Source: an uncultured Clostridia bacterium
GTDB taxonomy: Bacteria; Bacillota; Clostridia; Christensenellales; Borkfalkiaceae
Reading direction: 5' to 3'
Assembly: GCA_944359365.1 (NCBI GenBank)
Contig: CALVST010000013.1
Location: forward strand, 1-46,220
Length of the DNA stretch: 46,220 nucleotides
In this document: positions 11,325 to 33,859 of the stretch, piece after piece
Numbering within the stretch: the stretch's first letter is position 1
Layout of the letters: each line of letters starts with the position of its first letter
Notes under the pieces: generated by a model
The model's database searches: none
What the model was told of the DNA's origin: nothing
The model's input: only the letters and a program-made list of their open reading frames with translations
Made by a program: the position numbers and the translations under genes

Positions 11325-11335
11325 GTATCTGAAAT

Positions 11336-13600: not shown

Positions 13601-14755
13601 TCAGCGAAAATCCTCGTACTCTTTCAAAAGCGCGGCGGAGATGCTCGGCGGTATCTTTTCGAACGCCCTTTCGAACATATCGCGCGTGAGCGGGATGGGC
13701 GCGGTGGATTTTGCCGCCTGCAATTTTTCGAGAGCGAGGCGGCAAGCCTCTTCGATGATGCCGCATATATCCGCAGCCGAATAGTATGCTTCCTTTACGG
13801 AAACGCGGCCGAGCGGCGTATCTTTCACCGTCTGCCGTTCGGTCATTTCGAGAACGTCTTCCGCCGTTACGCCGTCGAGCGCGATGCCGTCGAGCTTCGA
13901 GGTTATGATGGCGCGCTTCGCTTCGAGATCGGGCGGGGTAACGTGTATCAGGTGGGAAAAGCGCTTGTACCGAAGGTATGCGGGATCGATCACGTCGGGG
14001 CGGTTGGTCGCGGCGATCATGATGCGCTTGGAACCGTCTACCCCGAAACCGTTGATGCGCTGTAAAAGCTCGGTCGTTACCGCCGCCTTATAGTCTTTCG
14101 TATCCTGCGTGCGGCGGCTGAAAATGGATTCGCATTCGTCCACGAACAGGATCGCTCCTTCGGGGCAGGCGTCTATCTCCTGAAAGATCTGTTTGACCGC
14201 CTGTTCCGATTCCCCTACATACGATTTGAAGATGTCCGCAGGCGTAACGATAAAGAGCGGCAGGTTCATGGCGTTCGCGATCGCCTCGGCGAACATCGTC
14301 TTGCCCGTGCCGGGCGCGCCGTACATGAGCATGCCAAGCCCGCCTTCCAACTTGTAATATTTGAGTATATCGGGGTTTTGCGCCATGAACATAAAACTCA
14401 TGACGAGTTTTTTTACGTTTTCCAGCCCCTTTACGTCGTCGAACGTGGTGTCGGGCACGCGGCTGGTGATGACGGAACCGTAACTTGCCGCAACGGCCGT
14501 GAGCTGTTTGTACTGCTCTTCGTACTTTTTCCGCTTTTCGTCGTCGGTCACCCTCTGCGAAAGGGTGCGCGCGAGCTGCGCCGCGCGCGAATATTCTGCG
14601 CGCAGCTTTTGCCTTTCCTCGTCGCGGATATCGTTTTTGTCTTTCCTTCCGCCCAAAAGCGCGCGTATTTTTGCGATGCTTTCGGCGTAGTCCTTTTCCA
14701 AATTATCCACCGAATCGGGTTTTTCGCCCTTCGGCGCCCTGCCGATGCCTGCCAT
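13601..14755 (-). CDS. Vps4/katanin-type AAA ATPase (cluster gene 10)
   Basis: A 384-aa AAA+ ATPase. Residues 1-95 are a charged helical segment that looks like an MIT-type helical bundle (three helices, the last YSRAAQLARTLSQRV to YKQLTAVAASYG). The ATPase core follows: FDDVKGLENVKK, Walker A GAPGTGKT (146-153), pore loop SYVGESE (178-184) typical of the meiotic clade (Vps4, spastin, katanin), Walker B LFVDEC (203-208), sensor 1 AATN (248-251), and the arginine-finger region LRYKRF (261-266). Such ATPases pull polypeptides through a hexamer pore. It is the last gene of the cluster, 12 bp after the 242-aa helical protein, which may be its substrate. FtsH is excluded: there is no protease domain or TM helix. 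Confidence 0.88.
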   Translation of the reverse strand: MAGIGRAPKGEKPDSVDNLEKDYAESIAKIRALLGGRKDKNDIRDEERQKLRAEYSRAAQLARTLSQRVTDDEKRKKYEEQYKQLTAVAASYGSVITSRVPDTTFDDVKGLENVKKLVMSFMFMAQNPDILKYYKLEGGLGMLMYGAPGTGKTMFAEAIANAMNLPLFIVTPADIFKSYVGESEQAVKQIFQEIDACPEGAILFVDECESIFSRRTQDTKDYKAAVTTELLQRINGFGVDGSKRIMIAATNRPDVIDPAYLRYKRFSHLIHVTPPDLEAKRAIITSKLDGIALDGVTAEDVLEMTERQTVKDTPLGRVSVKEAYYSAADICGIIEEACRLALEKLQAAKSTAPIPLTRDMFERAFEKIPPSISAALLKEYEDFR

Positions 14756-14767
14756 ATGCCTTACCCC

Positions 14768-15496
14768 TTACAAAATGTCGCTGATATCGCCGACGCCGCC
14801 CTGCGATGCGCCGCTCTGCGGGGCGGGCGTTTCGGGCGCGGCCGCCGATGCGCCGCCCTCTTCGCCGCGCGCTTTGAGCATATCCGCGATGAGCGCCTGT
14901 GCCTTGCTCGGCCCTGCGGGCGCCGTGGGCGCCTTGCCCGACGCGATGCGCTTTTCTTCCTTCTTTTTCCGCTTTTCGTCCCGCTTGTTCATGGTGATGC
15001 GCATCCTTTCGCAAGAGGAGCGGAGCGCCTCCATGATGTCCTGCGCCATCTGCTGCTGCCCGAGGATGTTGTCGATGGCAACGGTCATGCGGTTGCGGTT
15101 GTTGCGTATGACCTTGCGGATGCGGCGCTTTCTCTTCCAGCGCGAAAAGAATCCGTAATTTTCTTTGAGGGAGTCTTCCTGCAACATGGTGTCGAAATTG
15201 ATGGCGGAATCGATAAAACTGATCGCCTCGAACATACAGCTCATCGCCACGTTTATAGAGGTGAGCATTTTTATGACGTCCTTCATTTCAAGCGCCACGT
15301 CCAAAAAAGACAGCATCATCTGCGAGCGGAAATCTTCCTGCCCGTATTCGAGGATGAAGTCCACCGTCTTGTTGGCAAGATCTACGATCTTTTGGTCGAG
15401 GTCGCGGCTGCGCTGCTCGCGAGCGCGTTCCTGCCTCTTCTTTTCGGCGATCTGTTCATAGTCGCCGAAGGTATCGTGTTCTTTCTGTTCAGGCAT
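14768..15496 (-). CDS. Helical charged protein of unknown function (cluster gene 9)
   Basis: A 242-aa soluble protein with no recognised family. A charged N-terminal helix (YEQIAEKKRQERAREQRSR) is followed by helices rich in Met and Leu (SQMMLSFLDVALEMKDVIKM), a strongly basic stretch WKRKRRIRKVIRNNRNRM and another charged helix. An Ala/Pro/Gly-rich flexible tail then contains a short amphipathic helix (AQALIADMLKAR) and ends DISDIL. Size, helical content, basic core and flexible tail with a short helix resemble ESCRT-III proteins that are remodelled by Vps4. Placement next to the Vps4-like ATPase supports this, but sequence similarity is not demonstrated. The ribosome site is AAGGAG. Confidence 0.7.
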   Translation of the reverse strand: MPEQKEHDTFGDYEQIAEKKRQERAREQRSRDLDQKIVDLANKTVDFILEYGQEDFRSQMMLSFLDVALEMKDVIKMLTSINVAMSCMFEAISFIDSAINFDTMLQEDSLKENYGFFSRWKRKRRIRKVIRNNRNRMTVAIDNILGQQQMAQDIMEALRSSCERMRITMNKRDEKRKKKEEKRIASGKAPTAPAGPSKAQALIADMLKARGEEGGASAAAPETPAPQSGASQGGVGDISDIL

Positions 15497-15516
15497 TTTC
15501 GTTCTCCTTGCTTTGT

Positions 15517-18500
15517 TTAATTGACATATTTTTTGAGCGCCGCGGCGAGCGCGTCGCGCTCCGCTTCGGCGTTGTCAGCCCAATCGTGCGCGTAAATGCG
15601 GTACAGGTTCCATCCTCGTTCTTTCAGGCTGTCCGCATAGCGCATATTGTAGTCGAGATAGTTATATTTATTGCCCGTGGGCTTTTCGCACCACACGCCG
15701 AGCTGCGCCTCTTTCAGATCTTGCGAGAGCACAGCGACGGGTATGCGCACCGAGCCTTCCGTAACGCCGTAATCGCAGGCGATGCGCTCGCGCGCGATGC
15801 CCTGCGAGGCGATAAAATCGGCAACGTTCTTTATAAATCCCGCAGGCGGCTCTTCCGAAACGAACTGCGACCTGCCGTCTTCGGCAAACCGCGCCGCAAG
15901 CTCCAAATACTCGCGTATATACGAAACGCTTTCGCCCGTGATCTCTTCGGCGCGCACCGAATGTATGACGGCAACGCCGCACTGCGCCCGCGTGACCGCC
16001 ACGTTGAAGATGCACTTGCCCAATTTGTCGCGGTTGAGCTGACCGAAACTGTTTACCGTTTTTCCTTCCGCCGTTTTTCCGTAGGTAAGCGAAAGTATGA
16101 GCTGCGCGGTTTCCTGCCCTTGCACCGTCTCTATCGTCTTGAAAAAGATGAGCTTTTCGGGCACGTCCTTGAAATTGGAGAGCGCGCGGTCTATCTTTGC
16201 GCGCAGTTCCCTGTCGGCGCGCACCAGCTTTCTGATGCATTCCGTCTGTTCTTCGCCGAAGGCGACCACGCCGACCGATTCCGCGAGCGTCCCTTCCGCC
16301 TCGTCGTAATACCTTTCAAAATGCTCTTTCAAAAGGGCGACCGCCTTCTCCGCCTCCGCCATGTTCACGCCCTTTTCGCACCTTCCTTCGGGTACATATA
16401 CGTCGGTAAAGCCAAGCCCCGTTTTCCTCGGTACGGGTGCGGGGAATGTGCGCATGAACGGATAAAACGAGCGCTGTGAAAACGCGATGAGCGATTCCGT
16501 TTTGCTCCTGTAATGGCAGATGAGCTCCTCGGCGCGGAACGCGCGGTTGCGGAGCGCGAGCGTGAGCGCGGAAAGCTCCGGTTCGAGCACGAAACGGACG
16601 TTCCCGTCCTCGTCGGTAACGCGCCTTTCATACTTCGCCGCAAAGTGTTTGATGGGCGGCATCTGCCATTCGTCGCCCACGATAATGCACTGTTTTGCAC
16701 GGAACAGCACGGGCAGCAGGTTGACGGGTTCGAGCTGGCTCGCCTCGTCTATGATCACGGCGTCGAAGTCTGCATATTCCTCGGGCCGGAAGAGCACGCT
16801 CGCCGTAGAGGGAGAGAGTATAAAGCACCGTTTGAGCTTTAATATCTCTTTCGGATATTTTTTGAACAGGGAGCGCAGCGTCGTTTGCGGATCGCGCTCA
16901 GACGCGAGAAAAGATAGAGAAGGATCGTTCGGATCGATGCGCGCCATGCACTTGCCCTCGATGACGGACACGTTCGCCTGCTCGATCTTGCGCTCCGCCG
17001 CGGCGAGCTTTGTAAGGCTCTTCGCCACGTTTTTGCCCAACCCGTTGCGCAAAAGCCCCATGCTCTTCATGCGGTCAGCGACCGCAAGCGCATAAAAGGA
17101 ATGCTCGAACATATCGGCAAAACTGCCTTCCCGCTCCGCTTCGCCCCTTTCAAAGGGCGCAAAGAACGCGTACAGCGGCAGGGCGTTTGCGGGATCGTGC
17201 AGAATACTCTTATACCTCAGTGCCGCCGAAAGAATGCTCCTGTCGCCCGCCTCGGCGGCGTAAACGGAAAGATCCCCTACTTCTATCCGCGAAAGCTCGG
17301 CATAATGCCCGCCAAAGAATTTTTCGCCGAAATTTGCGAACCCCTCGCGCAGTTCGGCGGCGCGGCGCTTGGCGTCTTCCGGCGCTCGGCGCAGCGTTTG
17401 CGCCGCAGCCGCCTTGTCTTCAAGTGAACTTTCGGAAAAAGAGGGCGCCGAAAAGAGCGAGCGCAGCGCGAGTGCGGAATACGCCGCCTTTTCCGTTTCC
17501 GCGGCGGGCGCGGCAATGCCCGTCTTTTCGAAAAGCGCAAAGAGCGCTTTTTTAAGTTCAGCCTTTGCGAGCGCGGCGCGCGCGGCGGCATAAAGCTCGC
17601 CCGCATTCATTTGCCCCTTTACGCAAGCAGCCAACAGGCGCACGTCCTCCGCCCTTGCCGACGCCGCCGCGAGCAATTCTCTCGCGCCGTCCTTTGCAAA
17701 GGCAAGCGCAAGCCCGCGCATCTGTTCTTCCTGCGGCTTGGCGCGCAGCAGTTTGCATATGAGCGCGGCACAGACATCGCCCTCTTCGCGGCACTTTTCC
17801 GCATGACCGAAGGCGGAAACGGCGGCGACCGCTTCCGCAAACGACGCGCCGCCCGTAAAGCTCATGCGCGAAAGCCTTTCATACAGCTTTTTGCCCTTAA
17901 AATCAAATGCACGCGGCTTTTCGGCTTCCGCACCGTACTTTGAAAAGGCATCCGCCGCCGCGCGCAGAAGTTCCCTTTCCCCTGCGAGCGTTTCCGCAGA
18001 AAAAACCCTGCGCGCCTCGAAGAGAAAATCCTCCGCATTTCTGCCGCTTTCGGCGATCTTTTCCGTCAAAGCGGAAAGCTCGGCAAACTCCCTTTCCCCG
18101 AGATATTGCCCCGCTTCCCCCGCAAACAGCCGCGCGGCGGAAGCCATGCACGCCGCCTCTTCCGCGGTGAAAGGGTTCAGAGCCCCGAAATCGCCCGCAC
18201 GGACGACGGTTTGTACGCTTTGCGCGTCCGCGAGCGTAAATTTTTCGCCGATATCTTCCCGACGCACCGCGAGATATTCCGAAAACGCGCGGGAAAGCGC
18301 GGCGAATTCGTCCTCCGCGCCGTTTGCGATCACCGCGCGCGTTTCCTTTTCCGTAAGGACGGAGAGCATGGCGCCGAGCACGTCCTGCCAACGAAGTCCG
18401 TCCGCATCGCTGCCGGGCAAAAGCGCGCAAACATCCGCATACACCTGTTCGGCGAGCGCCGCAAGCCGCACGCATTCCGCATACGCGCCCTCCGTATCGG

Positions 18501-20013
18501 AAGAGGCGTCGACGCCCGCCCACGGGCACTTTGCGAGGGGATGTTTTTCTCCGCCCGTTAATGCGTCGAAATATCCTCCCGCCTCTTTCACGGCGGAAAG
18601 CAAAGCCTCGTACTGCACGCGCGTGAGCGCGGCGGCTGCTTCGGGCGGCGCGAAGGGCACCGCGTTCATGTTGTTCTTAAAATACGCGCCGAGCGCGTCG
18701 TAATAGGTGCCGCCCGCAACGGCGCCTTCCGTAAATACCTTGCTTATATAATCGGACAGGAATGTGATCGCCGCCGACTTTTCGGCATTCGCGTGTTCGC
18801 GCGCGTTATATGCCGCAGATGCGGGCGCATATTCACGCCGCGCCCTGACGAGCGCGCGCAGATCCGCCTTGATATCGGAAGGGTTGACCTTTGCCGCCTG
18901 TGTTTCCGTTTCGCAGTCTAAAAGAAGGGCGAACCTGCGCAGGGGCGCGGGAAGTTTTGCATACACTTCGGAAAGCGCGGAAAGCTTTTTCGACGCGAGT
19001 AAAACTTTTTTGTTCTCGCCCAGCAGCGCCGCGATCATATTCGCGATGGTGAGCGTTTTGCCCGTGCCCGGCGGGCCCTTTATGATCAGCGATTCGCCGT
19101 TGACCGCGCGGCGTATCATGTCTTCCTGCACGCTGTCGCGCGGGAGCACGAAATCAGGTTCGGCGAGGTAGCTCACCTTGTTTTCGGGCAGATTTTCGGT
19201 AAAAACGCGCCGCACGAGCGGATGCGCATAAATCTTATCCCGATTGCGGCGTATGTCGTAATACATACAAAGATCCGCGTGGTCGTATTCCGAAATGGCG
19301 ACAACGTTTTCCTCAAATTCAAACACCGCATCGCCGTCGGCGCTCTTGCAGCTCTGCATAAAGGCGCGCACCGCCGCAAAATACCTCTCTCCCCCGCCGA
19401 GCTTTTCGAGGGAGATCGGCTCGTCGAACGCGCCCGCACCGTTCGGATGCGGAAAACTTTCGGCTGTCTCTTCGCCGAGATCCCTTCTCAGCCCGTAGAT
19501 CAGGCAGGGGTTGAAATAGGCGTCGTCGTCTACAAATTCTATGCACACGGGGCTGGTACCCAGCGCGCGTATCAGGCGTATCGGAAAGATCAAAAGGGGC
19601 GTTGCGACCTCGCGCACTTCGCCTTCGGAAATGGCGATCTTGCGGCGCACCGCGCCGACGCTCAGAAAGAGCGGGTTGTTCCCCTTCAGATTGATGTCTT
19701 TATACGCGGCGGAAATGAACGCGGCGAGCCGCTTGGGATCCTGCGTTCCGTCGGCGGCGCGCCAATCGAAATCGTTGACGCTTTTTCCGATCACCTGTTC
19801 GCCCGCCGCCGCACTGCCGCGCAGTACGGTGTTGCCCGTCTTGCCGAGACGGCCGCGGATAACTTCTATCGCGTAAAGGGCGATATCGCGATGCAATTTG
19901 TGGGAAAGATAGTATGTATCGGAACCGCCCGCACCCAAGTCGACCAACTTGTTTTTCGCCGCGTCGCCCGCGTGCAGAAGCTCTTCCGTATACCCTTCCA
20001 AAAAATTCTCCAT
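15517..20013 (-). CDS. Giant UPF1-like SF1 helicase with nuclease-like C-terminus (cluster gene 8)
   Basis: A 1498-aa SF1B-type helicase of the AAA_11/AAA_12 group. Residues 1-295 resemble the DUF4011-like N-terminal region (NPLFLSVG, TPLLIFPIRL). Walker A is GPPGTGKT (313-320). A helical insert of about 700 residues follows. Motif II is DEAS (1089-1092) within VIIDEASQLEPVNLLP, then GDEWQMPP (motif III). Motif V/VI region shows ETVQGQETAQLILSLTYG and NVAVTRAQ. The last 100 residues (DYGVTEGSVRIPVAV to LKERGWNLYRIYAHDW) match the very-short-patch-repair-like domain of related helicases, but the catalytic Asp position reads Pro, so nuclease activity is doubtful. It likely unwinds or translocates on nucleic acid in the cluster machine. 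The ribosome site is AGGAGAGAGG. Confidence 0.88.
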   Translation of the reverse strand: MENFLEGYTEELLHAGDAAKNKLVDLGAGGSDTYYLSHKLHRDIALYAIEVIRGRLGKTGNTVLRGSAAAGEQVIGKSVNDFDWRAADGTQDPKRLAAFISAAYKDINLKGNNPLFLSVGAVRRKIAISEGEVREVATPLLIFPIRLIRALGTSPVCIEFVDDDAYFNPCLIYGLRRDLGEETAESFPHPNGAGAFDEPISLEKLGGGERYFAAVRAFMQSCKSADGDAVFEFEENVVAISEYDHADLCMYYDIRRNRDKIYAHPLVRRVFTENLPENKVSYLAEPDFVLPRDSVQEDMIRRAVNGESLIIKGPPGTGKTLTIANMIAALLGENKKVLLASKKLSALSEVYAKLPAPLRRFALLLDCETETQAAKVNPSDIKADLRALVRARREYAPASAAYNAREHANAEKSAAITFLSDYISKVFTEGAVAGGTYYDALGAYFKNNMNAVPFAPPEAAAALTRVQYEALLSAVKEAGGYFDALTGGEKHPLAKCPWAGVDASSDTEGAYAECVRLAALAEQVYADVCALLPGSDADGLRWQDVLGAMLSVLTEKETRAVIANGAEDEFAALSRAFSEYLAVRREDIGEKFTLADAQSVQTVVRAGDFGALNPFTAEEAACMASAARLFAGEAGQYLGEREFAELSALTEKIAESGRNAEDFLFEARRVFSAETLAGERELLRAAADAFSKYGAEAEKPRAFDFKGKKLYERLSRMSFTGGASFAEAVAAVSAFGHAEKCREEGDVCAALICKLLRAKPQEEQMRGLALAFAKDGARELLAAASARAEDVRLLAACVKGQMNAGELYAAARAALAKAELKKALFALFEKTGIAAPAAETEKAAYSALALRSLFSAPSFSESSLEDKAAAAQTLRRAPEDAKRRAAELREGFANFGEKFFGGHYAELSRIEVGDLSVYAAEAGDRSILSAALRYKSILHDPANALPLYAFFAPFERGEAEREGSFADMFEHSFYALAVADRMKSMGLLRNGLGKNVAKSLTKLAAAERKIEQANVSVIEGKCMARIDPNDPSLSFLASERDPQTTLRSLFKKYPKEILKLKRCFILSPSTASVLFRPEEYADFDAVIIDEASQLEPVNLLPVLFRAKQCIIVGDEWQMPPIKHFAAKYERRVTDEDGNVRFVLEPELSALTLALRNRAFRAEELICHYRSKTESLIAFSQRSFYPFMRTFPAPVPRKTGLGFTDVYVPEGRCEKGVNMAEAEKAVALLKEHFERYYDEAEGTLAESVGVVAFGEEQTECIRKLVRADRELRAKIDRALSNFKDVPEKLIFFKTIETVQGQETAQLILSLTYGKTAEGKTVNSFGQLNRDKLGKCIFNVAVTRAQCGVAVIHSVRAEEITGESVSYIREYLELAARFAEDGRSQFVSEEPPAGFIKNVADFIASQGIARERIACDYGVTEGSVRIPVAVLSQDLKEAQLGVWCEKPTGNKYNYLDYNMRYADSLKERGWNLYRIYAHDWADNAEAERDALAAALKKYVN

Positions 20014-20022
20014 GCCTCTCTC

Positions 20023-21969
20023 CTAATCGAAATCGACGGTGTGCCAAACCCGCTCGCTGTCGCGCAGGCAGTCGGCGGCAAAGGCGCGCGCCTCGGCTTC
20101 CCGCACCTGCACGAGGTACGCCGCCGTGGAAGTGCCCGAAAAGTACTTCTTGCCCGTATTGACGAGCCATTCCGCCTTTCTGCCCTTCGTAACGCCGAAA
20201 TCCGTCCAATACCAATCGCGCCAAGGTCCGTACATGACCATGTGCTGAAAGGCATGGTAACACTCGTGGCAGACGCAGTCTATCGTCCAACCGTAGCTCT
20301 GTATGCAGTCCTTTTTATACAAAATGCGCTTGCCGCCGTCGCAGCATAGCCCGCCCGCGCCCTTGTTTTCCAACTCGTCCAGAACGGCGACTTCCGGCTC
20401 GAACTCTATGCCGAGCGCGCGCATGACCAGCCTTGTCGCCTCGCGCAGGCGCTCTTCGCGCAGTTCGTCGCTCAGCGCCGCCCAACGGGAAGAATCGTCG
20501 CCGGCAAGGGTGCAGTAGCGCGCGAGCATCCCTATCTTTTCAAATACGGTGAAGTCCCCTTCCATGATCTTTCGCACATTTTCGGGGGAGACCGTGCGGA
20601 TATCGTCGTAATCGAAAGCGCGGCGGGAGTCGTCTTTCACATCGTCGGCGAAATCGCCCCATCCCGCGTCTATCAAAAGCCCCTGCGAGGGCAGTTTTTC
20701 CAGATACCGCCGCGCGGCGGGCGCGTTTTCCGCCGAGCGCACTTTTGCGGCTTGCTTCCAATCCTTGCCCGCCGCAAACGCCGAAACGGCATCGTTCAGC
20801 CCCACAAACCCCATAAAGGGCAGATTTTTTCGGATAAAATCGTAATCTTCGCCGCGCCCTTGCAGCATGCCCTTTTCTTCGAAGAGGGCGACCGTCTCTT
20901 CAAACAGGGGGACGGAAAGGTACTCGAAACTTATGTCCGTCGCCTGCATCCCGCCCGCAAGGACGGCTTTGAGCGCCGCGTCGTATATCTTTCTGTCGCC
21001 CGCGCTGTCCGCGATGAACGCCTTTTTGCCCCTTTTGCCCAGCCGCGCCGCCGCGCGGTACACAGCCTCCGCATCGCCGCGGCAGCGTTCCATGCCGAAA
21101 ATAATGACGTTTGCGCCCTTGCTTGCGGCGAGCGAGAAAATATTTTCGATATTCTCTTCCGAATACCCTTCGAACGCCTCCGCGCGCAGTTCGTACAGAC
21201 AGCCTTCCGTATTTTTTACGGCAAACAGTTCCGCCTCGTCGGCGAACGGGGTGCACAGCGCGACCGCGTTCGCAAGCGAGCGAGCGCCGCGGGGCAGTTC
21301 GGGGAAATATTCGCAGTTTTGCCACGGCGTCGTGCTTTTCAGTTCCTTCGCGTGCTTTTCGAAGAACCCTTCCGCGTCTTTTAAACGGATATTTTCGGCA
21401 AGCCCTTCCGCAAACGAACGCACTTTGCCGAGCTCTTCGAGCATTTCGTCGCAAATATTCGGAAAAACGACGTCCTCCCCGAAGGGGGAAGGCAGTTCTT
21501 TCAGCCCCTTTGCCGCTTCTTCCTTTTTAGCAAACAGCGCCGAAACTTCCCTGCACTCCGCCTCAGACGAGGTCGCAGGCTGAAAATCGTAAGTCCGTAC
21601 CCTGTCTGCCTGCGCGGGTGCGTCGTGCATGACCGCATCCGCCGCGGACGCGAAGGATACCAGCCTTTGCAGGACCGCCGCCGTGTTTGCATACCCCTTG
21701 CGTTCCGCCTCGCCCGACTTTTCTCCCGCAAAGGCGCTGAGCTTTGCAAAGTCGTCGGCATTGTAGCCCTCTTCAAAATAGGCGAGCGCCAGAATTTTTG
21801 CGCGCACGCGCCAAAGGAGCGCCTCTGCGTTCTCGCGGTTGGCGTCGTTGAGCCAGCTCTCCTGCAAGAGCGCATCGAGCGACAGCGCGCTCTTTTCCAA
21901 CTCCTCTTTTTGCGTGCTTTTCAGATAAGCGTAATTGGCTTTGCCGAGAATGTCGCGGACGGTCTGCAT
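20023..21969 (-). CDS. Protein with C-terminal gluzincin metalloprotease motif (cluster gene 7)
   Basis: A 648-aa soluble protein. The first 500 residues are helical with no recognised family. The C-terminal part contains HECYH (568-572), the HExxH zinc and catalytic motif. A matching ExEAxxFA motif, EAEARAFA (624-631), lies 52 residues later and would supply the third zinc ligand, as in ImmA/IrrE-like and minigluzincin proteases. A conserved-looking YGWTIDCVCHECYHAFQH core fits the active-site helix. The fold is therefore probably a gluzincin. Substrate unknown; another protein of the cluster or a regulator of it is the obvious guess. The ribosome site is GAGGGG. It lies 9 bp upstream of the large helicase. 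Confidence 0.75.
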   Translation of the reverse strand: MQTVRDILGKANYAYLKSTQKEELEKSALSLDALLQESWLNDANRENAEALLWRVRAKILALAYFEEGYNADDFAKLSAFAGEKSGEAERKGYANTAAVLQRLVSFASAADAVMHDAPAQADRVRTYDFQPATSSEAECREVSALFAKKEEAAKGLKELPSPFGEDVVFPNICDEMLEELGKVRSFAEGLAENIRLKDAEGFFEKHAKELKSTTPWQNCEYFPELPRGARSLANAVALCTPFADEAELFAVKNTEGCLYELRAEAFEGYSEENIENIFSLAASKGANVIIFGMERCRGDAEAVYRAAARLGKRGKKAFIADSAGDRKIYDAALKAVLAGGMQATDISFEYLSVPLFEETVALFEEKGMLQGRGEDYDFIRKNLPFMGFVGLNDAVSAFAAGKDWKQAAKVRSAENAPAARRYLEKLPSQGLLIDAGWGDFADDVKDDSRRAFDYDDIRTVSPENVRKIMEGDFTVFEKIGMLARYCTLAGDDSSRWAALSDELREERLREATRLVMRALGIEFEPEVAVLDELENKGAGGLCCDGGKRILYKKDCIQSYGWTIDCVCHECYHAFQHMVMYGPWRDWYWTDFGVTKGRKAEWLVNTGKKYFSGTSTAAYLVQVREAEARAFAADCLRDSERVWHTVDFD

Positions 21970-21992
21970 CTTTACCCCTCTTATTGCTTCGG

Positions 21993-23486
21993 TTATTTAT
22001 CGTTTTCGGAAAGGGGAATAAATTCGGGCGCCTCTTCCACGCGGGGCTTTTTCTGTTCCTGCTTAGCGCCGCCGTCCAAGCCCATCTCTTTGAGCAAAGC
22101 CTCCATTTCCTCTTCCGCCTGTTTCTTTTTCTGTTCGGAATTCACGGCGGGGCGCTTGGGCTCGCGCTCGCGTTCTCGCTCTTTTTCCATTTTCAGTTCG
22201 CGGCGGATATCGCGCCACGATTCCCTCGCCTCTTCGGTGAAACCGCCGTGCACCTTTATCATGTCGAACACGGCAAGGATGCGGCTCGCCACGTCCTTCA
22301 ATTCTTCCGCGCTCTTTCTGCCGAGCAATACGCCGCTCAGCTCCACGAGGTCGATGTTTTTCGAAAGAGTGGTGAACATTGCCGGATCGTTTTCGAATTC
22401 GAGTATCCTGTCGCTGAGTTTTTGGAATTCGCGGCGGATACCGTCGCGGTCGGAACGCCCCTCGTCCTTTTCGGCGATCTCGCCTTCCACTTCCTCGATG
22501 CGCTCTTCGCAGTCTTCGAGTTCGCGCTGCAGCCGCTTTATTTTAGAGAGGGAAAGCTCCGCAGAGATCTCCCCGTTGCGGTACTGCACGGAAAGGCTCT
22601 TCACCTCGTTCGTCTTTTCCTCTTTTTCCGCGTGCAGCGCGTCGCGCTCGGCTTCCAGCGCCTGCGTGCCGAAACGGCGCTCCGTTTCTTCGTCGAAACG
22701 TTTGAGCGCGTCCACAAAAACACACAGCCCCTCTTTGCGGCCGACGCTGTCGATGATGCGCTCCACATCGTTGGGGGAAGAATAGCCCACCTTTTCCTTG
22801 ATGTAATCCTCTTTTGCGATGTTGCGTTTTTTGGGCGCAACATTGAGCGCCTTCCAAGCCTTTGCCTTTTCGAGCGCGGCTTCGAGATCGGAAACGGCTA
22901 CGCTGTCGCACATATATACGGAAAGCTTTTTGCGCCAACGGATGATAAGGTCTACCATCTCCCCCGCGACGTCAGCGGCGGAAATGGAAGAATCGTCCCA
23001 CACCTCTTTGACGGTCTCTTCCGTCTCTTTGAGTATTTCGGCGCTGCGCGCGAAGAGCGCCTTCTGCCCTTCGCCGATATTCATCGCCGAAACGACCTCT
23101 GCCCCCTTGATGGACGAAGTGATATACTTCATCGCTTCTTCTTTGATGCTCATTCCCGCCTCCCTGCGCGCAGGCGTTTCGGCGCCTGCCAAAATTTTTT
23201 TCTTTGTTTCCGCATACTTTGCGAGCTTGTCGGGCGCCTTCCTGTCGCTGAGTTTGAGCGCGAGTTTAATAAGGTCTGCGATCGCCTCTTTTTCCCTCGA
23301 GCCAAACCCGCCGCTGCCGATACAGCGCGCCGTCAGATCCTCCAGGTCGCCTATGATCTCTTCCGAAAAGCTCTGACACGCGTCGCTCGCGTATCCGCGC
23401 GCGTCCAATTCATAAAAATCGGGATCGTACCCCACCCCGTTCGCGTCCAATGCCGCCGCTATTCTCTCGATTCTTTCCATAATCAT
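21993..23486 (-). CDS. Coiled-coil charged protein (cluster gene 6)
   Basis: About 497 aa, soluble and very rich in Glu, Lys and Arg. Residues 1-260 are helical with no recognised domain (YDPDFYELDARGYASDACQS near the start). A long coiled coil spans about 285-360 (KIKRLQRELEDCEERIEEVE). The tail is Lys/Glu-rich and disordered, then carries a short amphipathic helix EEEMEALLKEMGLD, and ends FIPLSENDK. The ATG at 23484-23486 forms an ATGA overlap with the upstream stop; the next ATG at 23478-23480 has the better ribosome-site spacing (GGAG plus 8 nt) and may be the true start. It looks like a structural or adaptor subunit. Confidence 0.72.
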   Translation of the reverse strand: MIMERIERIAAALDANGVGYDPDFYELDARGYASDACQSFSEEIIGDLEDLTARCIGSGGFGSREKEAIADLIKLALKLSDRKAPDKLAKYAETKKKILAGAETPARREAGMSIKEEAMKYITSSIKGAEVVSAMNIGEGQKALFARSAEILKETEETVKEVWDDSSISAADVAGEMVDLIIRWRKKLSVYMCDSVAVSDLEAALEKAKAWKALNVAPKKRNIAKEDYIKEKVGYSSPNDVERIIDSVGRKEGLCVFVDALKRFDEETERRFGTQALEAERDALHAEKEEKTNEVKSLSVQYRNGEISAELSLSKIKRLQRELEDCEERIEEVEGEIAEKDEGRSDRDGIRREFQKLSDRILEFENDPAMFTTLSKNIDLVELSGVLLGRKSAEELKDVASRILAVFDMIKVHGGFTEEARESWRDIRRELKMEKEREREREPKRPAVNSEQKKKQAEEEMEALLKEMGLDGGAKQEQKKPRVEEAPEFIPLSENDK

Positions 23487-27351: not shown

Positions 27352-27361
27352 ACCCATCTCC

Positions 27362-29014
27362 TCACTTCACTTTGCGCGGTCCCACGAGATACCCGCCCGA
27401 TTTGAGCGTAAGTTTATCGAGCGTGTATGCGTCCTCTCCGAGCAGGAACAGCAAAATGTCCTCCTCCTCAAAGCAAAGTTTTTGTTTTTTCGCGTATTTT
27501 AGCCGCGTGAGCGGAGAAAACATTTGCGCATATTTTTTGTATCGCTTTTTCGCAAGCTCTTTTTCCGCTCCGCCGGCAGACACCGCGGCGCGGCAGAAAG
27601 CGCATTCGCGCCCGTGCATATATTCCTTGGAAAATGGTCTGCCGCACAGGTCGCACACGGCGGCGTCCTCTTTTTCGATGAGCGTCATTTTATCGCGCGC
27701 AAACGCGAGGCGGGGCGTATATTTTTTCGTACCGTCTTCATAGACGAACACGACTTCGGGATACGGGCAGTCTTTGCACTTATAAACGGGCGAATCTTCC
27801 GTACCGAGATTTTCCGTCTGCGCCGCGCATACGAGGCGCGAGCACCCTCCCGCGACGCGCGGATTCTCCGTGCACGCCATGCGCTGTAAATGACGGGAAA
27901 GTTCGCTGTTTTCGGCGATCTTTTCCGCCTCTTCCTCGGTTATGCCGAGATCTTCTCTTGACGGCACGATCACAGCGGCCGCCTGCTTTTCCTCGCCGTT
28001 TTCGTCCGTTTCCGTATAGGCGATGCGGTTGTTTTCAATGAGGGCGCCCCCGCCGCAGTTCATGCAGTACAGGCTGATGCTCTCGTTCAGCCCCACGGAC
28101 GCGCGCATCACCGCTTTGCCCGCCGAGTAAACGTAGTATGCCGTACTGATCCAGCGGACATGAGAAATGCCCAAGGTATCCACCGCCCTGCATTCGAGGC
28201 GCACATTGTCGTGCGAGACCTTTTCGATCAGTTCGTTTACGATATTCGCGTCCTCTTCTCCGCTGAAACAGATGCAGTCGGTAAAGTCGAACCCCGCCGT
28301 CTTGCCGTAAAGCAGGTTTTCCATACCGCCGAGCACGGCGTCTATGGTATCGGACGCATCGGAACTGTCTGTTTTTCCGCCGCCCGTCGGGATGACTTCG
28401 TAAAGATATTCATCGATGCGCCGCGCCTCTTCTTCGGGCATGGGCAGCATTTTGTTTCCGTTCCTGCGGAAGTATACCTTGCCGAGCACGGGCACAGCCG
28501 CGCCCGTTCCGCCGGAAAGTTCTATGCGCACGGAAACTCCGTAAATATCCTCGATGCCGTCGGCACGGCTGCCCTCGCGCACTTCCGCGGCGGGCAGATC
28601 GGGGAAAAACCTTTCGCACAGCCGCGCGATCGCTCCGCGGCAACGCTCTTTTTCCTCGTCCGTGACCGTGCTTACGTTCTGCTTGTATTCGATGAGGGAA
28701 TACCGCCTGTGATAGCCCGCAGCGACGCTTTCGATCAGGTTGAGCCATACGGCGGTGCCGTCGTCGTACTTTTTCCCGCGCAGGGACGCGAACCACGCAG
28801 CGCCCTCTTCCGTCATGCCTTCCGCGCGCGCCGCGCTCCCCGCAACGTCCAACACCTTTACGTCCCCTGAATATTCGAAGGTGTAGGCGTCGGTGACGAT
28901 CTCGTTTTCCGTGGCGCTCTTTACGATCTCGGGCGGGATACATCCGCCCGAAACGAGCCGCACGATGCTTTTGAACGCCTTTTCGTATTCTTTGCCGATG
29001 ATGATCTTTGCCAT
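27362..29014 (-). CDS. Zinc-knuckle protein, partner of the SNF2 helicase (cluster gene 3)
   Basis: A 550-aa soluble protein of no recognised family. The N-terminal half is mixed alpha/beta (GKEYEKAFKSIVRLVSGGCI, YGVSVRIELSGG, LGKVYFRRNGNKML). The C-terminal half has several Cys pairs: CMNCGGG, CKDCPYP and CDLCGRPFSKEY followed by CAFC, suggesting two or three zinc sites, then a short helical tail with DILLFLLGEDAYTLDKLTLK. A Walker-A-like PTGGGKT is present, but it is in a linker and lacks supporting motifs. Its start is 10 bp after the SNF2 gene, with AAAGGAG. The shared Cys-rich style suggests it binds the helicase tail. Confidence 0.75.
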   Translation of the reverse strand: MAKIIIGKEYEKAFKSIVRLVSGGCIPPEIVKSATENEIVTDAYTFEYSGDVKVLDVAGSAARAEGMTEEGAAWFASLRGKKYDDGTAVWLNLIESVAAGYHRRYSLIEYKQNVSTVTDEEKERCRGAIARLCERFFPDLPAAEVREGSRADGIEDIYGVSVRIELSGGTGAAVPVLGKVYFRRNGNKMLPMPEEEARRIDEYLYEVIPTGGGKTDSSDASDTIDAVLGGMENLLYGKTAGFDFTDCICFSGEEDANIVNELIEKVSHDNVRLECRAVDTLGISHVRWISTAYYVYSAGKAVMRASVGLNESISLYCMNCGGGALIENNRIAYTETDENGEEKQAAAVIVPSREDLGITEEEAEKIAENSELSRHLQRMACTENPRVAGGCSRLVCAAQTENLGTEDSPVYKCKDCPYPEVVFVYEDGTKKYTPRLAFARDKMTLIEKEDAAVCDLCGRPFSKEYMHGRECAFCRAAVSAGGAEKELAKKRYKKYAQMFSPLTRLKYAKKQKLCFEEEDILLFLLGEDAYTLDKLTLKSGGYLVGPRKVK

Positions 29015-29023
29015 GATGCTCCT

Positions 29024-31813
29024 TTAACCGCGCGTTTGCTGATCCATACTGAGGATCGCCTGAATGTCTTTGACCTTTTCCGCCTCCGCTTGCAGGTTGC
29101 GGCAGAACGCCGCGCCGTTGTCGTGGCGGAAATCCCATGCGGCGCGGATATACGTCGCAAAGGTGCGCGCCAGCACGGGGCGTATGCGCCCCTGCCTGTG
29201 CCCCGCCGCGCAAACGGGGCAGTCCGCCTCCCACTTTTCGTCGAAACGGATGACGTGCGGCTTCGGGTAACAGGTGGCATATTCGCATCCCGAGCAGGAA
29301 TCGATCGCTCCTTCGCCCACGTCTATGCGGCATTTCGGCATGCAAATTTTATTGGTGCAGGCATAGCACAACTGCATGAGGTCGCCGTCGCTCGTGTTCC
29401 TGTCTTGCCGGTATTTTTCGAGCGCGGGGCATTTGCCCGCCATTTCCGGCTTTTTGAAAAAGTCGCAGTGAGAGAGCGAACATATCTTGCGGCAGTACAC
29501 CTGCCTGTCGCCGTACTCGCCGCTGTTGCACATGATGCCCTTGCCCTCGTTGTTGACAGACATACACAGGTAGCCCTCTTCCGATACGGAACGGGCGAAC
29601 ACAGAATCGCAGGCGTCGCACTTGAAATCGTAAACGCTTATCTCTTCCATGCGGGTGCCGCGCTCGTCGTATTCGCGGCACATCGTCGTTTCCGTACAGA
29701 AAAGGCCGTCCTCCTTCCGCTTTCTCTCGTAATCTTCGAGGGAATACAGGCGCACGCTGCCGCACACGGGGCAGCGCACGGTTATCATGCGCTCGTTGTT
29801 GCTGCCTGCGATGATGGTCGCATCGCCGCTGCCCGAAGACATCAGCTTGATGCGCAGGAAGTACATGAGGACGTAGCCTTCCAGCTTGCTCATATCCGCA
29901 AGCGAATAGATGCGCACGTTGTTCTTCTGCCCGAGGCGGAAAATACGGCCGATGCGCTGATCCATCGCCAAGGGATCGGGCGTCACCTGGAAATTTATGA
30001 TGACGTTGGAATCCTGCAGATTCACCCCCTCGGTAAAGGACGGATCCTTTACGATGAGCACGGCGTCCTCTTTTTCGATGAATTTTTTCACCGTTGCCGC
30101 TTTGCCCGCAGCCGTGCCCGAAAGCACGCGGGGCGCGAACTCCGCGTCCGCAAGCAGCGCCTGTTCGAACGCGTCCGCCGCGCACTCCTCTTTTTTCAGC
30201 TCGTAATCGAAAAACACGAGCACGCGCTGTTTTTTATGGGCGCGCAGGATCTCTTTGGCTTTTTTCAGCTTATGTTCGAAGATGCCGCTCTCCGCATAGC
30301 GCACGGGCACAAGCTCGTAGGAAACGTCGGGAGGAAGTTCGCGCATCTGATTCCAGTAATACCTGCCCGTATCCGCCTTCGTGAACACGGGAGCTTTTGC
30401 CCCGACGGTATTTATGATGCGGCTGCCGATCATTTCTGCATACGCCTGCCGCTGTGTAACGTTGCCGCGCACGTCTTCGATATAGGAAGAGAGCGGCATC
30501 TCGTTCCCGCCGGTGCGCACAGCCTTTTGCCCGTAGAGGTCGGAAAGGTCTATTTGTATCTCCTCGCCGTGCAGCCCCTTCGTCGAAAGCATGCCCGGCT
30601 TTTCCGTCATGGGGAAAAACAGATAGTTGAACAGTTCTTTCTTTTTGGTCAGCACGTTGTTGGGCTGACGGATCATGATGGAGCGCAAAACGCCGTTGTG
30701 GTAGGCGTTCGCCACCTGCGCGAGAACTTCGCCCGATATTTTTTTATTCTTTTCGAGGAATTCCTGCGCGATCTGATAGCGCTCTCCTTCCGTCTTTTCT
30801 TCGAACCCCTTTATATTTTCTTTGGCAAGATATTCGGAAAAAGCCGCGCCGTGCGTGCCCGTGACCTCTGTCAGTTTCACCTTTTTGATGAACTCCATGA
30901 CGGTCGCGGCGCCGCGGCAGATATGCGTTTTATAATAATTTTTTTCCTTATTGTAATCCGCGCTGCGGTCCTTGTCGTCCTTTTCGTCGAAATCGCCCGG
31001 GTTGCCGCCCTTGCAGCGGATAAAGTACCACAGGCGGAACATATGCTCTAAGTTGCCCGAATGGGGCGTTGCCGAAAGGAGCAGGCAGTACGTCATGTTT
31101 GCTTTCTTTTTCGTTTCCATCATGAGCGAAAGAAGTTTCATCGCCTTGGCGTACTTTCCCTCTTCCGCACAGAGGTGGTGCGCCTCGTCGACGATGATGA
31201 CGTCGAAAAGCAGCCGTTTGGTCTCTTCCGGCCAGCTCACGAAGTCCTCCGTTTTCACGATGATCGGGCGCACGGGGCGGAGCGCGCCGCCCGCCTTTTC
31301 GCATTCGAGCGCGCCGATATCTATATCCGCGCCGACGTGCAGCAACGCGCCCTTGCCGAGCCCGAATTGATTTTCGAGCACGTCTACCCAAGTCGCGTAT
31401 ACCTGTTCGGGCACGACCAGAAGGAGAGAGCGCACCTTGTCGCGCACGGCGAGCTCGCTCAGCACCACGCACGCCTCATACGTTTTACCGCTGCCGACCA
31501 CGTCAGCCAACAGCCCGAAGCCGCGCAGTTCGCGCAGAAAGGCGAGCGCCGCCTCGCGCTGATGCCGCAAAATGACGCCGTCGTTAAAGCCCTGCTTTTC
31601 CGTTATTCCGTAGCCGCTTTTCCCCTTTTTGTACTTATAGGGATCGATCTTGAGCATGGAAAAATCGTCGTAACGATCCAGCGGCTCGACCGCCCTGTTC
31701 ATCTCCGCGATCTTCGCGTTGTAAGCCTCTTTGGTCGAAGAGAGGCGCGTTCTCTGCTTTTCCCTGTCGAAAACGCCCAGCCCCACTTCGATGCGGTAAT
31801 TCCTTTTGCCCAT
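29024..31813 (-). CDS. SNF2/DEXH-type helicase with Cys-rich C-terminus (cluster gene 2)
   Basis: A 929-aa SF2 translocase. Motif I is VGSGKT (106-111) preceded by RHQREAALAFL, motif II DEAHH (209-213), motif III SATPHSG (248-254), motif VI DQRIGRIFRLGQKNNVRIY near 615-633, as in SNF2 and RapA-like enzymes. Residues after about 680 hold many Cys pairs (CPVCGSVRLY, CDACDSVF, CSGCEYATC, CPVCAAG), and the ending is helical. This Cys-rich part may bind zinc or a cluster and contact gene 3. SNF2 proteins translocate on double-stranded DNA and remodel bound proteins. The ribosome site is GGGAG. It lies 14 bp after the Hsp70-like gene. Confidence 0.9.
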   Translation of the reverse strand: MGKRNYRIEVGLGVFDREKQRTRLSSTKEAYNAKIAEMNRAVEPLDRYDDFSMLKIDPYKYKKGKSGYGITEKQGFNDGVILRHQREAALAFLRELRGFGLLADVVGSGKTYEACVVLSELAVRDKVRSLLLVVPEQVYATWVDVLENQFGLGKGALLHVGADIDIGALECEKAGGALRPVRPIIVKTEDFVSWPEETKRLLFDVIIVDEAHHLCAEEGKYAKAMKLLSLMMETKKKANMTYCLLLSATPHSGNLEHMFRLWYFIRCKGGNPGDFDEKDDKDRSADYNKEKNYYKTHICRGAATVMEFIKKVKLTEVTGTHGAAFSEYLAKENIKGFEEKTEGERYQIAQEFLEKNKKISGEVLAQVANAYHNGVLRSIMIRQPNNVLTKKKELFNYLFFPMTEKPGMLSTKGLHGEEIQIDLSDLYGQKAVRTGGNEMPLSSYIEDVRGNVTQRQAYAEMIGSRIINTVGAKAPVFTKADTGRYYWNQMRELPPDVSYELVPVRYAESGIFEHKLKKAKEILRAHKKQRVLVFFDYELKKEECAADAFEQALLADAEFAPRVLSGTAAGKAATVKKFIEKEDAVLIVKDPSFTEGVNLQDSNVIINFQVTPDPLAMDQRIGRIFRLGQKNNVRIYSLADMSKLEGYVLMYFLRIKLMSSGSGDATIIAGSNNERMITVRCPVCGSVRLYSLEDYERKRKEDGLFCTETTMCREYDERGTRMEEISVYDFKCDACDSVFARSVSEEGYLCMSVNNEGKGIMCNSGEYGDRQVYCRKICSLSHCDFFKKPEMAGKCPALEKYRQDRNTSDGDLMQLCYACTNKICMPKCRIDVGEGAIDSCSGCEYATCYPKPHVIRFDEKWEADCPVCAAGHRQGRIRPVLARTFATYIRAAWDFRHDNGAAFCRNLQAEAEKVKDIQAILSMDQQTRG

Positions 31814-31826
31814 TTTTTATTCTCCC

Positions 31827-33827
31827 TCAGTCGTCCGCCTGGACCATAAATTCGTCCATGCCTTCAAAACGTATTTCTATATCCCGCGCGGGCACTCTGT
31901 ACTTTACGCCCTGCCAACCGCCCGAAAAATATGCCTCGCCGGATGCAAATTCGATGACGGCGTTCCCGTCGTTCGCCTCTTTGTCGTTCACGATATACGG
32001 ATATGCCCTGCCGTCCTCGTCTATGCGCACGCCTTCGCGGAAATAAAGGCGGGTGTTGTGCAGGCGGCAGCGCTTTCCGCCGTGATAAAAGCGGATGGTA
32101 GCCCCGCCCTTGCCCGAAACGACTTTCAGCCCGATGACCTCTTCCGCATTTTTGCGCCATTCCGCATCGTCGGTATTGCCGATGAGAAGGTAGGTCTTGC
32201 CCGCCATATCGTAATACTGCCCCCGCATGCGGGAGAAGTGTTTTTTTGCGGCTATATCCTCTTCCGTGACGGCGACGGCATAGATCTGATCGTTTTTTAC
32301 CTCTTCGAGCACGACGGGCGCGCCGAAGTTGGACGGTACCGCGAAGATATTTCCGCCCTTGTCGAGCGGCGTGCCGCGGTTGACGAAGATAGACAAAAAC
32401 TTTTCGCGTATGGTATTGATGACGAACCACGTCGCATACGAAAGAGCGATGATGGTTTTCAGTTCGTAATTTTTGAGCGCCACGATCGCCCCGCCCACCG
32501 CGGGCGCATACACGGAATCTTCGAACGACAGGATGGAAAAGCCGTCCTTTTCATCCTTATAGTCGTCAAAGGTATAAAATTCCGCGCGCGGCACCTCTTT
32601 CTGCACCTGGTTTTTGATGTATTCGAATACGGAGCAAGTTTCTATCAACCCGCCCGACAAAAAGATCTTTTTCACGCCGTCGTTGACGGGACGCTTGACT
32701 TCCTGCAGGATATAGTCGGCTATTTTCCGCGCGACGCCGCCGTCCTTCGCGGTGCCGATGCACTCGCAAAATTCCTCTCGGGTGAGCTTGCGCTGTATGT
32801 AAAGGTCGCGGCTGACGCCCACGGGCACGCCGCTTGCGAACACGCTGCCCTCCTTTACGGGCACGCTCATCAGCATTTTCGCCTTTTTTATGTCTTTCAG
32901 AAAGAGATACTGCTTGGAATGCAGCCCCCGCTCGTTGATGTGCCCATCCTGCCCGTAAGAGGGCGTTCCCACCGTTTCCCTGCGGCGGATGCGCCCCTCG
33001 ATGTGTTCGGCGAGGGCGTCGTCTATGTCGTTCCCGCCGATGTCGCAGGGTTCGCTGTGCCCGTCGGCGCCGTCCACCGCAAGGCCGCCTTGCAGGAGCG
33101 TCGCCTTTACCACGGAAATGCTCTCTTCGCCCATATCGAATACGAGCAGGCTTTCGCCGAGCCCGAGCATCCCCCGCTGATAGGCGTACATACTGAGCGC
33201 CTTTGTGGAGCTGAGCACCTTTGCGGGCGGCACGCCGAACATTTTTTCCGCAAGGCGGCTGAGCTCGGCAACGTATGCCCTGCCCGTGCGCGAAGGGTGC
33301 ACGAGCGCCACGCGCAGCGCCGGCAGGAAAGCCGTGCCCGTATGCGCGGAAAGTTTGGCAATGCGCCCGAACACCATGCCGCGCGCGTATTCGAAAAACA
33401 TTTCGCACACGCGTTCGGGCGTTTCGCCTGCGGAAAACGTCATGTCATTGCGCACCATTTCTGCAAAGTCGCTGCCCATTTTCCGCCGCACGGGGAAATA
33501 AAACTTGGGAAAACAGTGCCCCCTGCGGTAATATTCCCTGTTCGATTTTTGCACTTCCGCATCGCGCTGCGGCAAAAGCAGGGAAAGGAGCGGCTTTATT
33601 TTGACGACGTTCACGAACGAACGCCTCCCCGCCCGTTCCACTTCGTCGCCGAACAGCCAGCGCTTTGCCGCCTCGTCGTAATAGGCGATCGCGGGCAGCG
33701 CGACTTCGGTCATGATGCCCTCTTTCATCAGTTTGCCGTATGTAATTTTTCCGCCCTGCTCGAATGCGAACGCCACTTTTAACGTGTCGCTGCCCAAATC
33801 GAGCCCGATGTTGAGAGAGATTGCCAT
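31827..33827 (-). CDS. Hsp70/actin-fold ATPase (cluster gene 1)
   Basis: A 666-aa ATPase of the actin/Hsp70 superfamily. Phosphate-1 is GLDLGSDTLKVAF (8-20), phosphate-2 VFDMGEESISVV (near 230) with GGNDIDDALAEHI (near 265, the GGEDFD-equivalent), and the adenosine motif IFLSGGLIE (near 385). The usual DnaK substrate domain is not evident; the last 200 residues read as a separate beta-rich region (FYHGGKRCRLHNTRLYF, YFSGGWQGVKYRV). It resembles stand-alone Hsp70-like proteins found in large bacterial gene clusters more than DnaK, HscA or MreB. It is the first gene after the promoter at 33860, so it may set the level of the whole operon. Confidence 0.85.
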   Translation of the reverse strand: MAISLNIGLDLGSDTLKVAFAFEQGGKITYGKLMKEGIMTEVALPAIAYYDEAAKRWLFGDEVERAGRRSFVNVVKIKPLLSLLLPQRDAEVQKSNREYYRRGHCFPKFYFPVRRKMGSDFAEMVRNDMTFSAGETPERVCEMFFEYARGMVFGRIAKLSAHTGTAFLPALRVALVHPSRTGRAYVAELSRLAEKMFGVPPAKVLSSTKALSMYAYQRGMLGLGESLLVFDMGEESISVVKATLLQGGLAVDGADGHSEPCDIGGNDIDDALAEHIEGRIRRRETVGTPSYGQDGHINERGLHSKQYLFLKDIKKAKMLMSVPVKEGSVFASGVPVGVSRDLYIQRKLTREEFCECIGTAKDGGVARKIADYILQEVKRPVNDGVKKIFLSGGLIETCSVFEYIKNQVQKEVPRAEFYTFDDYKDEKDGFSILSFEDSVYAPAVGGAIVALKNYELKTIIALSYATWFVINTIREKFLSIFVNRGTPLDKGGNIFAVPSNFGAPVVLEEVKNDQIYAVAVTEEDIAAKKHFSRMRGQYYDMAGKTYLLIGNTDDAEWRKNAEEVIGLKVVSGKGGATIRFYHGGKRCRLHNTRLYFREGVRIDEDGRAYPYIVNDKEANDGNAVIEFASGEAYFSGGWQGVKYRVPARDIEIRFEGMDEFMVQADD

Positions 33828-33859
33828 TCCTTAAACCTTATTATAATAATTCAGTTTCT

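Follow-up and report, generated by a model that had tools for sequence, protein, structure and literature searches.

A ten-gene operon of the Christensenellales predicted to encode a membrane-anchored multi-ATPase machine with a tentative role in immunity

We analysed a 46,220-nucleotide stretch of DNA (hereafter the window) from an uncultured Clostridia bacterium of the family Borkfalkiaceae, order Christensenellales (GenBank assembly GCA_944359365.1, contig CALVST010000013.1, positions 1 to 46,220 of the forward strand). The minus strand of the window carries ten co-directional open reading frames (ORFs), which form an operon-like block of about 20 kb (13601-33827) and were named, in the direction of transcription, A (31827-33827) to J (13601-14755). 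The best explanation of this block is that it is a horizontally exchanged operon, found in one copy per genome where it occurs, which encodes a single membrane-anchored multi-ATPase machine; taken together with an immune role, this reading is tentative and falls somewhat short of an even chance. Judged by its sequence, the ensemble is rated as categorically new, although several of its parts come from known superfamilies.

Gene A was detected in 37 genomes by searches of the genus and the order, and 32 loci, that of the window included, were mapped (the unmapped genomes are G151, G157, G249, G280 and G381, with weak partial matches in G157 and G249). The full set, arranged as A-B-C-D-E-F-G-H-I-J, is present in 12 of the 32 loci (G000, G011, G026, G032, G041, G163, G299, G305, G308, G345, G371 and G415); in three of these complete rows J or H is labelled twice, which is due to overlapping stretches. 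Eight further loci (G134, G192, G227, G269, G338, G362, G374 and G427) contain A-F together with I and J and lack only G and H, another eight (G008, G010, G164, G182, G207, G272, G283 and G327) are truncated by contig ends, and four depart from the common order: (i) G261 contains all of the genes except a recognised F, in the position of which there is a 512-amino-acid (aa) ORF with an 18-bit match to F, (ii) in G342, J is located upstream of A on the same strand, (iii) the locus of G038 comprises A-E, directly adjoined by hrcA-grpE-dnaK-dnaJ (L043, 2433-7195; genes named by eye), and (iv) in G363, A-C are followed by a D frame that runs into unrelated sequence and then by other ORFs, so this locus is broken or misassembled. 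The J gene of G363 lies on another contig, and the ORFs following D (L059, 9589-11459) resemble, by eye, a Mrr-type restriction domain and DegV.

This arrangement is shared by seven families of the Christensenellales, which is more than chance. Within the genus (Ca. Borkfalkia), 37 genomes were searched for A and 40 for J; both genes were found in six, the same genomes in each case. The completeness of the genus genomes is 66-96%, so single absences carry little weight. The divergence of the genes is correlated (r 0.55-0.96), and none of 999 permutations gave a value as high for any of the 35 pairs (H was left out). This co-divergence is consistent with one unit, and shared ancestry alone gives the same pattern. 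The genes are under purifying selection, with pairwise ratios of nonsynonymous to synonymous substitutions (window versus G026) of approximately 0.08-0.28, the highest in D. The initial annotation had proposed that the ten genes act together, and that genomes in which at least six of them co-occur in order should be counted. Both the complete loci and those without G and H speak for one unit in this respect, as do the co-occurrence of A and J, the patchy distribution, the conflict between gene tree and families, and the lack of any defence model that covers the ensemble.

Across the order, 32 of 396 genomes have a match to A (two of these being weak and partial); in two other genera it is present in 13 of 17 and 10 of 20 genomes, with one match per genome. 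A sample of the class yielded two matches among 391 genomes, both within the order, and a sample of the phylum only that of the window itself (1 of 398). The element thus appears to be nearly restricted to the order; since the class and phylum counts come from samples, rare copies may exist elsewhere. Other named records with a match are Ca. Protoclostridium, Ca. Limadaptatus and a metagenome-assembled genome (MAG) of Christensenella, while the genus Ca. Borkfalkia is placed within the Christensenellales in the NCBI taxonomy. Many titles of matching MAG records mention gut, caecum, rectum or rumen. Two matching records are titled Bacilli: L104 carries an ordered A-B-C-E set (9971-22005), possibly through transfer across classes or else through a binning error, and L115 contains just the start of A at a contig end.

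Further insight into the mobility of the block was provided by six genomes of the genus in which the aldo/keto reductase gene that neighbours the block has a close counterpart (at least 76%). Clean empty sites were found in three genomes that have neither A nor J (G013, G034 and G027), in which the aldo/keto reductase gene is separated by only about 140-170 bp from an arabinofuranosidase gene. In G026, these two neighbours are separated by exactly the ten genes. The window additionally contains GH43 and laminin-G surface genes (34056-38096) between A and the arabinofuranosidase gene, which are absent from this position in G026. Inspection of the insertion site by eye revealed no integrase and no obvious target or terminal repeat. 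In a tree built from A+B+C+E (22 rows), the families f1 and f16 stay together, while f6, f32 and f3 are split, and the monophyly of each of these three was rejected by the approximately unbiased test (p values of 1.6e-6, 4.5e-8 and 0.0066, respectively); these were quick trees with some long branches, and the families were tested post hoc. The simplest reading of the split families is that the genes may have been transferred between families as a block. An old duplication followed by losses could produce the same conflict, and is not the simplest reading. Since searches of plasmid, phage and viral-contig sequences gave no match for A, and a search of plasmids none for C, the idea that the cluster controls conjugation, which had also been put forward initially, finds no support.

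The genes of the block are separated by intergenic gaps (calculated from their coordinates) of 13 (A-B), 9 (B-C), 4 (C-D), -4 (D-E), -4 (E-F, counted from the F start codon ATG at 23486), 23 (F-G), 9 (G-H), 20 (H-I) and 12 bp (I-J), and the coordinates and translations bear out the initial description of ten minus-strand genes with gaps of -4 to +23 bp. A promoter-like site on the minus strand (GTGATA-18-TATAAT, 33840-33869), matching the consensus in 10 of 12 positions and including a perfect TATAAT, is located 12 bp upstream of A. The same scan gave weaker minus-strand matches within the block at 30978, 27890 and 24381, and the total for the region (11 matches) does not differ significantly from that of shuffled sequences (7.5 +/- 3.1). 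For these two reasons we consider a single promoter at the head of the block, as proposed in the initial annotation, no more than plausible.

The ten proteins were searched against the models of PADLOC-DB, Pfam and NCBIfam, and the figures given here are taken from the matches listed; for seven of them (A, C, D, E, F, G and I), no model of Pfam or NCBIfam is matched above the respective cut-off. The first gene encodes a 666-aa protein (A; 31827-33827, minus strand) that we assign to the ASKHA (actin/Hsp70-fold) ATPases on the basis of a match of its nucleotide-binding domain in profile searches and conserved Gly and Asp residues (D10, G12, G233, G392 and G393 are invariant in the alignment of 24 of 24 homologues). 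A profile of 24 sequences gave DnaK as the best match in the PDB (E 5e-4). The protein is far diverged from DnaK, has an extra C-terminal part and, with a Pfam HSP70 score below the cut-off (E 0.012), is not an Hsp70 proper. In the truncated locus of G008, A is in two overlapping pieces (L041, 3122-5333), reflecting decay or an assembly error.

Protein B (929 aa; 29024-31813, minus strand) is a SNF2/RapA-like ATP-driven translocase with a Cys-rich C-terminal part (Pfam SNF2-rel_dom 1e-8, Helicase_C 4.5e-9). Its GSGKT (107-111) and DEAH (209-212) motifs, Q619, I621-R623 and many C-terminal Cys residues are invariant in 21 of 21 homologues. Protein C (550 aa; 27362-29014, minus strand), the product of a core gene, has no family match and contains 11 Cys and one His that are invariant in 23 of 23 homologues; the conserved Cys residues are probably zinc sites. 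Its AlphaFold2 (AF2) model is of fair quality (predicted local distance difference test, pLDDT, 80), and a fold search with this model gave no PDB match at E<=1e-3. Protein E (373 aa; 23483-24604, minus strand) combines a zinc ribbon, with C3, C8, C25 and C28 invariant in 22 of 22 homologues, with Sel1-like repeats (profile versus PDB, Sel1, E 6e-5).

Among the ten proteins of the window, transmembrane (TM) segments are predicted for D alone (918 aa; 24601-27357, minus strand). Five N-terminal hydrophobic segments were found in 16 of 16 homologues, and the charge pattern follows the positive-inside rule, which places the long C-terminal part, with its Ig-like (PKD/MBG-like) repeats, in a predicted extracellular position. 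The length of complete homologues ranges from 900 to 1916 aa, and the number of repeats varies as well. The five TM segments described in the initial annotation are thus predicted throughout these homologues, while the MBG-like character of the repeats remains below threshold (MBG_3 7e-4, PKD 4e-3).

The last gene encodes J (384 aa; 13601-14755, minus strand), which has its own N-terminal region and can be classified, from its AAA core (Pfam AAA 2e-32, above the cut-off; AAA_5 8e-6) and Walker A and B motifs (invariant in 10 of 10 homologues), as a classical AAA ATPase. The initial annotation had placed it in the Vps4-type meiotic clade. This was not upheld, by a modest margin: J appears nearer to Cdc48/p97, with 146 bits for the NCBIfam CDC48 model versus 129 bits for CdvC (both below their cut-offs), and its Vps4_C score of 18.7 bits does not reach the Pfam cut-off of 21.3. 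The PDB matches of J are dominated by p97/Cdc48 chains and their kin, and the best 60 of 61 matches (E<=1e-30) include no chain named Vps4, katanin or spastin; this ranking is inflated, since each p97-type chain is scored over its whole length and hence over two AAA domains (89 + 123 bits in the top-ranked chain).

Directly upstream of J lies I (14768-15496, minus strand), a 242-aa helical protein with a variable linker and a conserved acidic-hydrophobic C-terminal tail, mostly of the form DDI-x. Asp240 is the sole invariant column of I (20 of 20 homologues). Its AF2 model, of low confidence (pLDDT 64), consists of long helices. A small helical protein with a linker and a conserved C-terminal motif beside an AAA ATPase is reminiscent of ESCRT-III/Vps4. 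We did not retain this assignment: a Foldseek search with the low-confidence model of I gave no significant match (best E 1.9, with Vipp1 at ranks 45 and 48, E 9.1), no MIT domain is among 25 of the 30 families listed for 11 N-termini of J, and J scores nearer to Cdc48. All that remains of the idea is the analogy that I and J may work like an AAA ATPase with a tailed client. Protein F (21993-23486, minus strand) is 497 aa long, probably helical or coiled-coil (based on an alignment of 17 homologues; coiled-coil-type Pfam matches were below threshold), with an acidic C-terminal tail. F and I appear to end in similar tails in several g77 genomes (INDIV/ITDIV versus IDDIV), a likeness which hints that both could be clients of J.

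The two genes missing from eight otherwise complete loci encode G and H. Protein G (648 aa; 20023-21969, minus strand) is a predicted metallopeptidase, which we classify as a gluzincin by its HExxH motif and the downstream Glu ligand (Glu624). The residues H568, E569, H572 and E624 are invariant in 14 of 14 homologues, and no Pfam peptidase family was matched. G041 contains two tandem copies of G (L042, 12723-16553). Protein H (1498 aa; 15517-20013, minus strand) is a UPF1-like superfamily 1 (SF1) helicase (Pfam AAA_11 3.5e-19, AAA_12 4e-10) with a C-terminal MTES/Vsr-like nuclease domain (MTES_1575 7e-8; below the cut-off in one Pfam search, and at 38.9 bits versus a cut-off of 38.2 in another). 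In an alignment with the canonical L164 row as reference, in which some wrong-frame rows were ignored, the Asp and Glu that we take to be the catalytic residues of the MTES-type nuclease are replaced in 5 of 5 homologues (D->P and E->W), and we therefore rejected H as a nuclease effector. Thus, among the families named in the initial annotation, the Hsp70-like ASKHA ATPase, the SNF2 translocase, the AAA_11/12 helicase and the gluzincin motif were recovered, in contrast to the Vps4-type assignment.

No set of PADLOC, Pfam or NCBIfam models covers the ensemble of ten among the matches listed, and these include no credible PADLOC or NCBIfam defence model for A, C, D, E, F, G or I. B, H and J fall far below the NCBIfam cut-offs, in agreement with the earlier statement that the combination corresponds to no named defence system, here with respect to PADLOC-DB and NCBIfam. 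The nearest named models among the matches listed include DISARM DrmD, DpdE, BrxH and RapA for B, and ProA, PDC-S37 and Hhe for H. The likeness to DISARM, BREX and Dpd lies in the SNF2 helicase B, which is nearest to DrmD, BrxHI and DpdE as well as to RapA. A DISARM set consists of DrmA, DrmB, DrmC and a methyltransferase with DrmD; however, B reaches only 104 bits against the DrmD cut-off of 610, and neither DrmB, DrmC, a DISARM methyltransferase nor a BREX/Dpd modification gene is among the matches listed for the ten proteins. H aligns with Hhe, ProA and PDC-S37 over the helicase halves and the C-terminal nuclease fold, but it scores 402 of the 1500 bits required for ProA and 245 of 2000 for Hhe, lacks the presumed nuclease residues and is located inside this operon. 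J resembles IetA (PADLOC, 3.7e-31), and a protease gene is present in the same operon, as in IetAS. IetS is a subtilisin-like protease, whereas the protease here is an optional HExxH gluzincin, J has 98 bits versus the 510 required for the NCBIfam anti-phage ATPase IteA (named IetA in PADLOC), and there are eight further genes.

No report describing this operon was found in the literature searched, which left most subscription papers and preprint servers outside its coverage. Among the published systems found, the Type III-A CoCoNuTs come closest in theme: their large superoperons join a UPF1-like SF1 helicase, an Hsp70-like protein, coiled coils, zinc ribbons, a Cdc48-like AAA ATPase and an inactivated nuclease (PMC11090510). 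Our cluster shares this combination in one large operon and, instead of the remaining CoCoNuT parts, has a SNF2 translocase, a five-TM Ig-repeat protein and a gluzincin. Neither a McrB-like GTPase, McrC, VWA nor HEPN is among the matches listed for the ten proteins (the NxD/NxxD motif was not searched for), and J, as a classical AAA ATPase with no McrC or HEPN partner among these matches, does not qualify as a CoCoNuT/McrBC component. The GAP1-N2 GTPase/ternary conflict systems share the theme of an Hsp70-family ATPase, a membrane protein with Ig-like (FNIII) repeats and zinc ribbons (PMC7159879); unlike these, the cluster has no detected GTPase, MoxR partner or VWA, and has SNF2 and UPF1-like helicases instead.

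We tentatively favour, at a little under even chances, a membrane-anchored machine for immunity or conflict that would remodel nucleoprotein or protein and not cut DNA. Immunity is suggested by the patchiness, the tree conflict and the defence-type nearest models of B and H; remodelling is preferred to cleavage because H appears to have lost its nuclease activity and there is no sign of another effector. In the mechanism that we envisage, D would be the envelope anchor or sensor, on the cytosolic side of which the core (A, B, C and E) would assemble, these proteins being regarded as the core because A-E stand alone in G038. Within this core E would serve as a scaffold, and the substrate would be nucleoprotein, in the most likely case DNA that enters at the membrane. 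F, I and J could form a second layer or remodelling arm, in which J, to go by analogy, may thread I, and perhaps F, by the conserved C-terminal tail, thus switching or recycling the complex. G and H (the helicase with the dead nuclease domain) would constitute an optional add-on module, and the overall role would be sensing and remodelling. A bolder version, which we hold to be speculative and rather doubtful, is that of a new membrane-spanning immune machine that would protect without cleaving DNA. Here an outside Ig-repeat sensor would be linked through five TM segments to an ASKHA ATPase and a SNF2 translocase for the remodelling of incoming nucleoprotein, the Cdc48-like AAA ATPase would reset the machine by pulling tailed helical clients, and the whole would circulate as a block among families of this uncultured gut order.

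Several observations weigh against the immune machine. The 113 ORFs of 27 flanking loci (longest-ORF calls of at least 110 aa) belong mainly to metabolic and housekeeping families, and a defence island setting was therefore rejected; no integrase or transposase family is among 25 of the 98 flank families listed. In PADLOC, each of 25 of the 101 flank families listed has a single-member match, with many type II methyltransferase models as well as HEC-06, mad3, Orf5 and E1-E2, and at least one type II methyltransferase is encoded among the 113 ORFs. No intact nuclease or toxin-like effector of known type was found in the cluster, and the nuclease residues of H are lost in all homologues aligned. 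All 25 Borkfalkia genomes searched also encode a separate MTES_1575-bearing protein (G000:C5:53232-53507 and 24 others), the length of which is mostly about 1,900 aa; it retains the nuclease Asp, with the Glu replaced, in the rows aligned, and is apparently the product of a core gene of the genus, so the kinship of H to Hhe and ProA is not by itself a sign of defence. In P. aeruginosa, a DUF4011 gene is likewise reported as a core gene beside a defence hotspot (PMC10250203). With the exception of the two records titled Bacilli, the samples gave no match outside the order, which is unusual for a defence system. The locus of G038 stops at E, a search of its whole genome gave no match to J at E<=1e-60, G381 and G164 likewise yielded none, and the G363 locus breaks off in D. 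Finally, the divergence of D is even over its TM and repeat regions (identity by region 51/50/50%) and not confined to the outside part, the faster evolution of which was therefore rejected. The earlier defence proposal is thus weakened: the patchy occurrence, the kept gene order and the defence helicases nearest to B and H favour it, whereas the apparently dead nuclease and the ordinary flanks do not.

Some of the same observations suit a non-immune role. The block may encode an accessory envelope apparatus (for adhesion, cell-cell or host contact, or envelope biogenesis), of which D would be the product and the ATPases would assemble, position or turn over D. We consider this a serious possibility, although not a probable one. 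The five-TM D, whose long Ig-like array on the outside differs among homologues in length and in the number of repeats, the lineage-bound distribution in MAGs with many gut, caecum, rectum or rumen titles, and the metabolic flanks all fit such an apparatus; the SNF2 and UPF1-like ATPases and the many conserved Cys residues point instead to nucleic acid.

It is unlikely that the operon mediates conflict or quality control directed at RNA or the ribosome, in the manner of Type III CoCoNuTs, with the helicase, the Hsp70-like protein and the AAA ATPase acting on RNA or nascent chains. The superfamilies reported for Type III-A, including the Cdc48-like AAA ATPase and the inactivated nuclease (PMC11090510), recur here in H, A and J, but no McrB GTPase, McrC, HEPN or SmpB-like match is among those listed for the ten proteins, and the absence of H and G from eight otherwise complete clusters shows that the UPF1 part is not essential.

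Still less likely is a specialised chaperone or proteostasis operon of the Hsp70-AAA-protease kind, serving the stress response. The joint presence of an ASKHA ATPase, an AAA ATPase and a gluzincin, and the hrcA-grpE-dnaK-dnaJ genes adjoining A-E in G038, are compatible with it. Against it stand the patchy distribution, the conflict with the family phylogeny and the SNF2 translocase, which such an operon would not be expected to include; A also falls short of the cut-off of Pfam HSP70, and the matches listed contain neither a J-domain nor GrpE. A selfish mobile element or prophage remnant kept for its own transfer, which the clean presence or absence at one site and the conflict between tree and families might suggest, is very improbable, given that no recombinase was matched by the ten proteins, no terminal repeats were seen by eye, and A is unmatched in viral contigs, phages and plasmids.

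A ten-gene unit of 20 kb, whose order is kept and which has apparently been traded between families, points to a costly, selectable task. The occurrence of the operon in 6 of 37 genomes of the genus, together with the empty sites, offers ready matched comparisons. Its role would represent either a new surface machine in the gut order Christensenellales or a new principle of immunity, one based on envelope sensing and remodelling as opposed to cleavage.

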